Of a stretch of 32,707 nucleotides of DNA, positions 18,766 to 26,751 are shown one piece after another. A model generated the notes under the pieces. That model was not told the origin of the DNA, did not search any database, and was given only the letters and a program-made list of their open reading frames with translations. The stretch is from Polyangiaceae bacterium. GTDB lineage: Bacteria; Myxococcota_A; Polyangia; Polyangiales; Polyangiaceae. The DNA lies in the NCBI GenBank assembly GCA_020848455.1, contig JADLAB010000010.1, positions 1 through 32,707 of the forward strand, read 5' to 3'. Both the position numbers and the translations under genes were made by a program. The first letter of the stretch is position 1, and every line of letters starts with the position of its first letter.

Positions 18766-18802
18766 AGTCGTCAGTCGTCAGTCGTCAGTCGTCAGTCGTC
18801 AG
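18766..18802. repeat. Tandem 7-bp repeat (five copies) directly upstream of batB
   Basis: AGTCGTC is repeated five times without change (18766-18800) plus AG. On the coding strand it reads TGACGAC and ends four bases before the batB start, exactly where a ribosome binding site would be expected. Confidence 0.95.
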
Positions 18803-18803
18803 A

Positions 18804-18891
18804 GAGGCTCGCGGCATCCGGACCCAAGTTTCTCGCGAGGCTCACGGCATCCGGACCCAAGTTTCTCGCGAGGCTCACGGCATCCGGACCC
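18804..18891. repeat. 33-bp direct repeat, two full copies and a 22-bp partial
   Basis: The units lie at 18804-18836, 18837-18869 and 18870-18891, back to back, with one mismatch between the first and second copies (G at 18811 against A at 18844). The core contains GGCATCCGGACCC. With no spacers this is not CRISPR. It lies inside the Bat operon between the two vWA genes. Confidence 0.95.
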
Positions 18892-23611: not shown

Positions 23612-24445
23612 ATGCGCGCGCTCCGTCCCCGCTCCCACCGCACCACGGTCGTCGTCACGCTCTCGCTCGGCGCGCTCGCGCTCGCGGCCTCCTGCGCCTC
23701 GAGCGGCGACGACAAGCGCCGCGGCGACGTCGGCATGTCGTGCCGGGCGACCGACGACTGCCTCGAGCCGCTGCCCTGCATCGCCTACGTGTGCGGCGGG
23801 CCGACGGGAACCGGGGGCCACACCGGCTCCGGAGCCACGGGCGGCGGCGGCAGCGGAGCCACGGGCGGCGGCGCGAGCGGCGGCGGCGGCAGCGGCAGCG
23901 GGGCCACGGGCGGTGGCGGCGCGGGCGGAGGCCCGGCGTGCGACGGCGTCGGCCCCGGGCTCACGCTCGACAGCTGCGACGCCTGCCTCGAGACCGACTG
24001 CCACGCCGAGCTCTGCCAGTGCGGCGACGCGTGCGTGGGCATCGAGGCGTGCCTCGAGACCGTGTGCCGGGCGCTCACCGACGCGGCGCAGGAGGGCCAG
24101 TGCCAGGTGTACTGCCAGGGCCAGAACCCCGGCGGCAAGGACGCGCACGTCGCCGTCGTGAACTGCGCCTACACCGGGGCGTGCATCCCCCCGTGCCAGC
24201 CCTACCCGGCGGCGTGGAACGACTGCCGTGCGGCGCTCAATGCGGGTGATTGCGCCGACGAGCGCGCCGCCTGCCAGGGGAGCGCCGACTGCCTCGTCTA
24301 CCAGGCCTGCACCGACTCGTGCGCGACCTCGGTCGACTGCATCGCGTGCGCGGCGACCCTCTCGGGCGCGACGGGGCGCATCCTGCTCGAGACCTACGAG
24401 CGGTGCATCGCGCGCGAGTGCGTCGCGCAATCGTGGGCGTACTGA
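23612..24445 (+). CDS. Cys-rich lipoprotein with Gly-rich linker
   Basis: The product has 277 residues. A signal sequence ends in a lipobox-like AASC (Cys28). A short Cys motif region (CRATDDCLEPLPCIAYVC) is followed by about 45 residues of Gly/Ser/Thr linker and a Cys-rich C-terminal domain with many spaced Cys pairs (for example CDACLETDCHAELCQCGDAC). This is a common design of surface lipoproteins in Myxococcota; the paired Cys imply an oxidising, extracytoplasmic setting. No heme motif (CxxCH) is present. Function unknown. It converges on the selenoprotein gene with only 10 bp between the two stops. Confidence 0.85.
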   Translation: MRALRPRSHRTTVVVTLSLGALALAASCASSGDDKRRGDVGMSCRATDDCLEPLPCIAYVCGGPTGTGGHTGSGATGGGGSGATGGGASGGGGSGSGATGGGGAGGGPACDGVGPGLTLDSCDACLETDCHAELCQCGDACVGIEACLETVCRALTDAAQEGQCQVYCQGQNPGGKDAHVAVVNCAYTGACIPPCQPYPAAWNDCRAALNAGDCADERAACQGSADCLVYQACTDSCATSVDCIACAATLSGATGRILLETYERCIARECVAQSWAY

Positions 24446-24455
24446 CCCGCCGCGC

Positions 24456-24809
24456 TCAGCCCGCGACGAGCGCCGCGTAGGTCTCGTCCGAGAACCCGAC
24501 GTAGAGCTTGCCGCCCTGCCGCACCGCGGGCGCGCGCAGGTTGCCGCTCGGGCCGAGGATCGCCGCGGCGAGGTCGTCGTCCGAGGGCGGGCTCTTCCGC
24601 ATGTCGAAGCGCACGACCTTCTTGCCCTTCGCGACCACGACCTCGGTCGCCTCGCGCGCGAGCGCGAGCGCCTTGTCGCGCGGCATGCGCACCTTGCGCG
24701 CGTCGAGCTCCACCTTCGCCACCACGCCGGCTTGCGCGAACACCTTTCGCGCTCGAGTGCAGCTCATTCAAGCGGCGCGCTGGTAGTACCAGTCGATCTT
24801 CTTGCTCAT
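24456..24809 (-). CDS. ArsC/Spx-like selenoprotein (UGA-encoded Sec in a UxxC motif)
   Basis: ATG 24809, preceded by GGGAG with a 7-nt spacer, opens a frame reading MSKKIDWYYQRAA, then UGA (24770-24768), then MSCTRARKVFAQAG and on to a stop at 24458-24456: 117 residues with Sec at position 14. Read through, the UGA sits in a U-x-x-C redox motif at the place where thioredoxin-fold ArsC-like proteins carry their catalytic Cys. The downstream body (ARKVRMPRDKALALARE, LRAPAVRQGGKLYVGFSDETY) fits the ArsC-like family, for which seleno-forms are known. A perfect bacterial SECIS hairpin follows the UGA. Starting instead at the AUG right after the UGA would give 103 residues that lack the catalytic residue and the first strand of the fold. 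It is probably a cytoplasmic thiol/selenol oxidoreductase with an unknown substrate. The selA, selB and selC genes are not in the window. Confidence 0.93.
24734..24752 (-). promoter_or_regulatory. Bacterial SECIS element
   Basis: On the coding strand GCGCGAA (24752-24746) pairs perfectly with TTCGCGC (24740-24734) around the pentaloop AGGTG. The loop has the GG/U character needed for SelB binding. Its first base is 22 nt after the UGA, within the usual 16-37-nt range. The element lies inside the coding sequence, as bacterial SECIS elements do. Confidence 0.9.
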
Positions 24810-24812
24810 CTT

Positions 24813-24850
24813 GCGTCTCCCACGTCGGCCGGCGTCTCCCTCGTCGGCCG
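24813..24850 (-). repeat. 19-bp tandem duplication in the selenoprotein leader, copying the ribosome binding site
   Basis: Two adjacent 19-bp units (24813-24831 and 24832-24850) differ at one base (A 24822, T 24841). On the coding strand each contains GGGAGACGC, the Shine-Dalgarno sequence of the selenoprotein gene, so a second, upstream copy of the site exists. Confidence 0.9.
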
Positions 24851-24856
24851 GCCCGA

Positions 24857-24912: not shown

Positions 24913-26751
24913 CTAGCTTGGCGGGCGCGCGCACCGGCGCCGCGCCCCGAGCGCGACCCCGAGCGCGGCGACCATCGCGGCGAGCGCGCGCGCGGCGGGC
25001 GACGAGCCGTGCGCGGGCGCCGTGCGGCAGGCGCAGCCGCCCGCGGTGTCGCCCGGGAGCTCGGCCGCGGCGCCGCCCGCACCCTGCGACACGGGCGGTC
25101 GCGCGAAGGGCGAGAGGTTCGCCTCCGGCGCGCCGAGCTCGCTCAGCCGGCCGAGCCAGTAGGCGGCGAGCCAGTCGCCGCGCGGGTCCATGCGCGTGCT
25201 CGCGCTGCCGTTCACCTGGTGCGGGTCGCTGCGCCACATGAAGTCCGAGTCGGGCCGGATGCTCATCGGCAGCGGCTCCGCGGCGACCGGCCCGCCACCC
25301 CAGCCGCTGCCCGCGATCGCGATCGTCGTCGCACCGTCGAGGGCGAGGCACGAGCCCTCCGCGAGCTCGGCGGCGTCGCAGTTCGTGCGGTCGCGCTCGA
25401 GACAGGGCGCCGGCGGGAAGCCGGCGAGCATCGCCGCCATGCGCGCCGGGATGAGCGCCGGGGCCGCCGCGAGGTACGCGCCCACGACGGCGTCGAACCA
25501 CGGCTGACCCACGTGGCTCGCGTCGCGATCGCCGTCCACCGACCAGAACTGCGTCGCGAGCGTCTCGGCGAGGTCCGCGCGCACGCCGGGATCGGTCTCG
25601 AAGCGACCGAGGGTCGCGAGGCCGATCGCGGCCATGTTGACGTTCGAGTAGTTCGTGACCGTGCCGGCGTACATGAGCCCGACGGTCGTGACCGGATCGC
25701 GCGCCATGTGGCGGCGCCCGACGAGCTCGTCGTAGTACCAGGCGCCGATCTCCGCGTCGCCCGTCACGTGGTAGGCGGCGCGCACGATGCCGAGCGCGAG
25801 CAGGGCGTTGAAGCCGTTGCGGAGCGTGCTGTCCTCCGGCAGCGGCACGCCGTCGGGCGTGAGCGAGCGCGGGTTGAGGTCGTGGAAGCTCGTGAGCCGC
25901 CCGTCCGCGTCGCGCAGGCAGAGATCGATGCCCTTCTCGGGCGCGACCTGCCGGAGGGCGCGCGCGAAGGCGCCGAGATCGGCGGCGAGATCGTCCGTGA
26001 CCGACGCCGGCACGAGCGGGTCGGTGTGGAGGGCGTCCCACAGCCACGCCACCGCGAGCGCGTAGCCCGACACCTGATCCTTGCTCGTGTCGTCGAGCCA
26101 CACCCAGCCGTCGAAGCCGGGTGCCACCGGCGCGCGCCACACGGCCGACTTGTCCGCGGGCAAGGGCTCGCCGTTGGCATCGACGAGCGGGACGAGCGTC
26201 GGCGCCGGCCCGGGAAACGGCGCGTCGCCCGCCTGCCACGGGGTCACGCGCCGCACGCCGCGCGCCACCACCCCCGGCCCGCCGATGGCGCCGTACACGT
26301 GCCAGGCGCGCGCCGCCCGGACGGCCGCGTCGCGCGCGCGGTCGAGCGTCGCACCCGCGGCGCCGGCGTTGCGGAGCGCGAGGAGCCGCGCCGCGACGCC
26401 GACCGACGCGATGCCGGCGAAGTTCCCCTCGTCGCCGTGCTCGTCGTACGAGGCGAGCACGGCGTAGGGATCGACCCCGGCGTAGCTCGCGAAGTCGTCG
26501 GTCGCCGTCTGCGCGAAGAACCCCTCGATGGTGGCGACCGCGGCCGGGTCCGCGATGGGATCGAGGAAGAGCCCGTTCTCGCGCGTCGCGAAGGTACGCT
26601 CGAGCCGCTCGTAGCCCGCGCGCAGGGCCTCGAGCGCGGGATCGTCGTCGGGCAAGAGTGGCTGGGCCGAGGCGACGCCGACGCCGGCGAGGGTCGCCGT
26701 GACCGCGGCGCCGAGAGCGAGCCGACGGGCGAGTCTCTTCGAGCGGGGCAT
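24913..26751 (-). CDS. Secreted protein with MYXO-CTERM sorting tail (unknown enzyme-like domain)
   Basis: The product has 612 residues. An N-terminal signal peptide (RLALGAAVTATLAGVGVASA) is followed by a largely helical ectodomain of about 530 residues rich in Trp/Tyr/Asp segments (WVWLDDTSKDQVSGYALAVA, NYSNVNMAAIGLATLGRF). This suggests an alpha/alpha-toroid-like fold such as in sugar-processing enzymes, but I recognise no family and assign no reaction. The C-terminus is a textbook MYXO-CTERM: GGCAC (Cys573), a spacer, a membrane helix (about 589-604) and an Arg cluster. This predicts processing by a myxosortase and lipid anchoring on the cell surface. TAAGCT lies 7 nt before the ATG with no ribosome binding site. 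It is upstream of, and on the same strand as, the selenoprotein gene, 103 bp apart. Confidence 0.88.
   Translation of the reverse strand: MPRSKRLARRLALGAAVTATLAGVGVASAQPLLPDDDPALEALRAGYERLERTFATRENGLFLDPIADPAAVATIEGFFAQTATDDFASYAGVDPYAVLASYDEHGDEGNFAGIASVGVAARLLALRNAGAAGATLDRARDAAVRAARAWHVYGAIGGPGVVARGVRRVTPWQAGDAPFPGPAPTLVPLVDANGEPLPADKSAVWRAPVAPGFDGWVWLDDTSKDQVSGYALAVAWLWDALHTDPLVPASVTDDLAADLGAFARALRQVAPEKGIDLCLRDADGRLTSFHDLNPRSLTPDGVPLPEDSTLRNGFNALLALGIVRAAYHVTGDAEIGAWYYDELVGRRHMARDPVTTVGLMYAGTVTNYSNVNMAAIGLATLGRFETDPGVRADLAETLATQFWSVDGDRDASHVGQPWFDAVVGAYLAAAPALIPARMAAMLAGFPPAPCLERDRTNCDAAELAEGSCLALDGATTIAIAGSGWGGGPVAAEPLPMSIRPDSDFMWRSDPHQVNGSASTRMDPRGDWLAAYWLGRLSELGAPEANLSPFARPPVSQGAGGAAAELPGDTAGGCACRTAPAHGSSPAARALAAMVAALGVALGARRRCARPPS

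Follow-up and report, generated by a model that had tools for sequence, protein, structure and literature searches.

Evidence for a selenocysteine-containing, ArsC-related protein of the NF041106 family in a Polyangiaceae bacterium

Introduction

The insertion of selenocysteine (Sec) at UGA codons followed by a downstream SECIS hairpin is textbook knowledge for bacteria. The locus described here lies in a window of 32,707 nucleotides, the whole stretch of DNA that was analysed, and contains a reading frame that is interrupted by UGA shortly after its start and then remains open. Two questions were addressed, namely, what kind of protein the complete frame would encode and whether the UGA is read as Sec. 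The window corresponds to contig C10 in a draft genome of 9.2 Mb and 742 contigs (96.5% complete, 4.75% estimated contamination).

Results and Discussion

Reading frame and product

The frame is located on the minus strand, where an ATG (24809-24807) is followed by 13 residues including the initiator, a UGA (24770-24768), 103 further residues and a TGA stop (24458-24456). This interrupted frame and a U-M-S-C motif had been claimed in a preliminary description of the locus, and both were recovered on translation with TGA as U, the motif being U14-M-S-C17. The coordinates given there were exact, but the strand had been left unstated; read on the plus strand, 24456-24809 gave no recognisable protein. 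The features of the gene are as follows.

24456..24809, minus strand: very probable selenoprotein gene of the NF041106 family, 117 residues plus stop (translation with TGA as U, NCBIfam, Pfam)
24768..24770, minus strand: in-frame UGA, putative Sec codon 14, opening U-M-S-C (UGA column in 39 of 39 aligned homologues)
24759..24761, minus strand: codon of Cys17, the second UxxC redox residue (invariant in 39 aligned homologues)
24528..24536, minus strand: Arg92-Ala93-Pro94 (R92 and P94 invariant in 39 homologues; aligned to R-R-P of Spx 1z3e)
24813..24852, minus strand: 19-nt near-perfect direct repeat that doubles a GGGAGACGC stretch directly 5' of the ATG (tandem repeat, 2.1 copies, 95% matches)

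The product, with TGA as U, is MSKKIDWYYQRAAUMSCTRARKVFAQAGVVAKVELDARKVRMPRDKALALAREATEVVVAKGKKVVRFDMRKSPPSDDDLAAAILGPSGNLRAPAVRQGGKLYVGFSDETYAALVAG. The duplicated Shine-Dalgarno-like GGGAGACGC upstream of the ATG could be the ribosome-binding site.

Family and predicted fold

The product matched NCBIfam NF041106.1, "ArsC family (seleno)protein," with 125.3 bits (cut-off, 85) over model positions 1-107 of 107, and shares with this family (ArsC_rel_Se_1) its length, its domain and a UxxC motif in which Sec comes first; nothing essential differs. The family is entered as "Arsenate reductase-like protein" with UxxC in a 2026 review (PMC13188914), and UxxC selenoproteins named "arsenate reductase 2" (cd03032) were described from the Global Ocean Sampling (GOS) survey in 2008 (PMC2398784). 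The latter have in common with the window gene the ArsC-type fold, Sec in UxxC and a bacterial SECIS, and the two groups are likely identical. The term "hidden selenoprotein" in the preliminary description was therefore appropriate with respect to ordinary gene callers only, as the family was already present in NCBIfam and in the literature.

The structure predicted by AlphaFold2 from 39 homologues (mean pLDDT, 95; pTM, 0.87) is an ArsC/Spx-type thioredoxin fold. The order of elements in the model is a strand at 4-10, a helix at 15-27, further strands and helices, and a strand at 95-98 that follows R92-A93-P94. With this order, Sec14 would lie at the N-terminal end of helix 1, as is the case in redox proteins with a thioredoxin fold, and Pro94 probably occupies the usual cis-proline place of such proteins. 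The best solved structural matches were ArsC-related or Spx structures (3gkx, Z 9.1; 3ihq, Z 8.9; 3f0i, Z 8.1), although Z scores between 8 and 9 lie only slightly above the level reached by unrelated models. The kinship is nevertheless sound because a sequence profile search of the PDB independently found Spx with an E value of 5e-12. The earlier designation "ArsC/Spx-like" thus holds for both family and fold, given the NF041106, Pfam ArsC and Spx profile matches and the structural neighbours.

Whether the protein is a Sec form of arsenate reductase proper was considered, and this was judged improbable. The Pfam ArsC family (PF03960) is matched narrowly (24.7 bits; cut-off, 24), the ArsC folds 3f0i and 3rdw are among the structural neighbours, and the name given to related UxxC proteins in older surveys (PMC2398784) is that of an arsenate reductase. 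However, the equivalog model for arsC, TIGR00014, gave no match to the window protein at E values up to 1, and no ars operon was recognised next door. The position after the conserved V-G is Phe, Tyr or Trp in 39 of 39 homologues. In classical ArsC this place is taken by an anion-binding Arg (Arg107 in the E. coli plasmid ArsC). Furthermore, Cys17 gives the window protein a second redox residue, and its UxxC pair resembles those of Spx and glutaredoxins, unlike the one-Cys ArsC, with which it has the Pfam family and the fold in common.

A second reading, rated a shade below the first, is that of an Spx-like regulator that would bind RNA polymerase and sense oxidants via Sec14 and Cys17. Spx (1z3e, 3gfk, 6ghb) provides the closest solved relatives by sequence and has the same fold; its CxxC aligns with UxxC and its LRRP with LRAP, so that the columns of U14/C17 and R92 fall on the CxxC and R-R-P of Spx. 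In contrast, Spx has its first Cys where the window protein has Sec, and the Spx/MgsR model TIGR01617 scored only 13.3 bits against a cut-off of 75. ArsC-like folds of the Spx type also occur in proteins that are not regulators. By analogy with Spx, a selenium-based redox sensor in Myxococcota and relatives, in which Sec14-Cys17 would sense oxidants and the protein would regulate transcription or proteolysis, can be envisaged but is unlikely; if this were true, selenium status would feed into stress control. Since TIGR00014 and TIGR01617 both reject the protein, the UxxC motif and the fold point most likely to a small thiol/selenol oxidoreductase acting through U14 and C17.

SECIS hairpin

24734..24752, minus strand: bacterial SECIS hairpin with GCGCGAA stem, AGGUG loop and UUCGCGC stem (covariation in two sets of 20 and 32 distinct homologous sequences; within published limits)

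The limits given for bacterial SECIS elements are a loop of 3-9 nt, a stem of 4-16 bp, a G among the first two loop positions, a distance of 16-37 nt from the UGA and a minimum free energy of at most -7.5 kcal/mol (PMC13188914). The hairpin of the window gene satisfies each of these, with a 5-nt loop that starts 22 nt after the UGA, a G in second place, a perfect 7-bp stem and -11.0 kcal/mol over the 27 nt of the hairpin region. The stem and spacing are as had been proposed beforehand. No Rfam family, bacterial SECIS included, was matched anywhere in the window at gathering thresholds.

By itself, the hairpin says little beyond chance. In the GC-rich window, a perfect 7-bp stem with a loop of 3-8 nt occurs 71 times, a 53-nt piece beginning shortly before the UGA folded no better than its own shuffles (z, +0.7), and the hairpin of the window gene was only marginally more stable than those of 1000 synonymous recodings (p = 0.05). 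As shuffling is a blunt test in GC-rich coding DNA, synonymous recoding and covariation across homologues were used in its place. For the SECIS region of 59 UGA-bearing homologues, whose tests are not independent because the genes are related, the mean recoding z was -1.63, with all values negative and 22 of the 59 below p 0.05. Elsewhere in these genes, seven stretches gave means of -0.43 to +0.21.

Two kinds of stem register were found among the homologues. For the 20 distinct sequences that have the register of the window gene, two-sided changes were seen at 5 of the 7 pairs; 13 two-sided cells were counted versus 4.4 in shuffles, and 0 of 500 shuffles reached 13. Sliding the partner lowered the paired cells in this group from 90% to 73% or less. 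The larger ASKFLDA group comprises 32 distinct sequences; here, 99.6% of cells were paired, and the third stem pair varied between G-C, G-U, A-U and C-G. Two members of that group (L067 and L088) carry GCA/GAT in place of GCG/GAC, a change that is silent on both sides of the stem and hence not explicable by protein constraint. The loop starts with AGU, GGU or AGG in nearly all members.

Conservation of the UGA codon

Among 194 relatives, a homologue was detected in 24 genomes, in 20 of which the matching frame is interrupted by UGA; the matches in the other four were weak and distant. A tRNA-Sec was found in 60 of the 194, about a third, and its distribution followed that of the UGA homologue, being present in 19 of the 20 genomes with one and in 41 of the other 174 (Fisher p = 3e-10, without correction for kinship). 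The one UGA-bearing relative without a detected tRNA-Sec (G178) has a genome that is about 90% complete and 6% contaminated. A UGA homologue was also present in one more distant genome, labelled as Planctomycetota (L009). A search of 379 genomes of the phylum gave 79 matches above the NF041106 cut-off, distributed over 78 genomes, and 78 of the 79 had one TGA inside the match. The unusual prevalence of the Sec form in a family so widespread in the phylum suggests that Sec is important for its function.

The lone exception, G488 (L077), reads ...YHRRSCETCKRSQ... and has TGC (Cys) at the Sec codon; it forms with the other members the expected Sec/Cys pair. The RNA at its SECIS place folds with only -3.1 kcal/mol, and a tRNA-Sec is still found in that genome. 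The weak fold suggests either that the element was lost once Sec had been changed to Cys or that the Cys form is ancestral.

In the alignment of 39 homologues, position 14 (U or C), C17, R92, P94 and G105 are invariant. The preliminary description had called for a comparison of residue 14 among homologues, and these were found to have Sec (UGA) or Cys there. The window protein shares at most 53% identity with any homologue in the alignment, and has U-M-S-C versus U-T-S-C, preceded by R-A-A versus R-K-G, in most of them. It is this comparative evidence, i.e., UGA conservation, covariation and the recoding z values, that is decisive in showing that the hairpin and the UGA are more than chance.

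Related UGA-bearing groups were also observed. A second subfamily, FYGRxUTGCRPVREFLAR..., occurs in L025, L026, L027, L028, L029 and L030, of the same order, and its UGA is followed by a hairpin of the same kind; at 54-63 bits it lies under the NF041106 cut-off and may deserve its own family model. A third group, YLKxTUTSCRDARSSLR...LLRRP, from L093 and L094 of the same class, has a UGA with a hairpin in another register and an R-R-P that is closer to Spx/ArsC; one of its two genomes (G469) has no tRNA-Sec above threshold. In L080 (G199, contig C167), a UGA-bearing homologue is broken into two frames, either by a frameshift error or as a decaying copy.

Sec machinery and assignment of the UGA

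The inference that the organism decodes Sec had been made before its genome was searched. The four genes named for that search, selA, selB, selD and the tRNA-Sec gene, were all found above their cut-offs, selB and selC both being present. The tRNA-Sec (C410:2460-2553; 75.4 bits; gathering score, 47) adjoins selB (C410:486-2402; 293 bits; cut-off, 242) and was identified by ARAGORN as tRNA-SeC with anticodon tca (UCA). The selA gene is on C326 (470 bits; cut-off, 268), and selD is on C11 (312 bits; cut-off, 125). As these contigs are others than that of the window, in a draft with 4.75% contamination, the Sec genes could in principle be from another organism. The selD gene itself (L045:1490-2424) has an in-frame UGA near its start, in ...VAGGGUARKL... 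(motif GGGUARK), and the genome thus has at least two selenoprotein genes.

Two further explanations of the UGA were weighed, and each was considered extremely improbable. The first, that the gene is a pseudogene or that a TGA arose in a Cys gene through faulty sequencing or assembly, might be entertained for a lone TGA in a draft of many contigs, but was refuted by the conservation of UGA at the same codon across many genera (78 of the 79 homologues, which come from independent genomes), as well as by the covarying hairpin that follows, the Sec machinery of the genome and the retention of all invariant residues in the rest of the frame. The second, the reading of UGA as another amino acid, either Trp by a reassigned code or through simple read-through, agrees with a frame that is also open with TGA as Trp; however, the window gene and many homologues terminate in TGA, which argues against reassignment, the non-UGA homologue has Cys at the aligned residue, and the genome has selB and a tRNA-Sec with anticodon UCA.

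The locus is therefore interpreted, with high confidence, as a genuine selenoprotein gene that belongs to the ArsC-related, UxxC-type NF041106 family and comes from a member of the Myxococcota that decodes Sec, the product being likely a small thiol oxidoreductase. Judging from the sequence data, Sec is presumably inserted in the cell. SelB carrying Sec-tRNA-Sec would bind the hairpin that directly follows the UGA, and Sec would be placed at position 14 in place of termination. The selenolate of Sec14 would then attack a substrate of the disulfide or peroxide type, and Cys17 would resolve the Sec14 adduct as a selenenylsulfide.

Both the family and SECIS-directed Sec insertion were already known, and this particular gene leaves the general picture as it was. 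It documents the use of Sec in this lineage of myxobacteria and is a clean case of a gene that ordinary callers would truncate at the UGA or begin only downstream of it.

Neighbourhood of the gene and other features of the window

In a comparison of 20 homologous loci with the window, only the selenoprotein gene itself recurred broadly. An adjacent ORF was common to four closer relatives, with an amino acid permease match in one, which is too few for functional inference. None of the seven ORFs examined around the window gene matched a Pfam family, and the gene was not found in phage records.

On the minus strand, 24913-26751 encodes a predicted secreted protein of 612 residues without a Pfam match; it has an N-terminal signal-like stretch and a C-terminal tail (GGCACRT...hydrophobic...RRR) resembling a MYXO-CTERM sorting signal. 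The convergent ORF at 23612-24445, on the plus strand, encodes a Cys-rich predicted lipoprotein of 277 residues, likewise without a Pfam match, with a Gly-rich linker (tandem repeats, 23824-23953). Elsewhere in the window, at 18766-18891, a perfect 7-nt tandem repeat, AGTCGTC, in 5.3 copies is directly followed by a 33-nt repeat of 2.7 copies with 98% matches.
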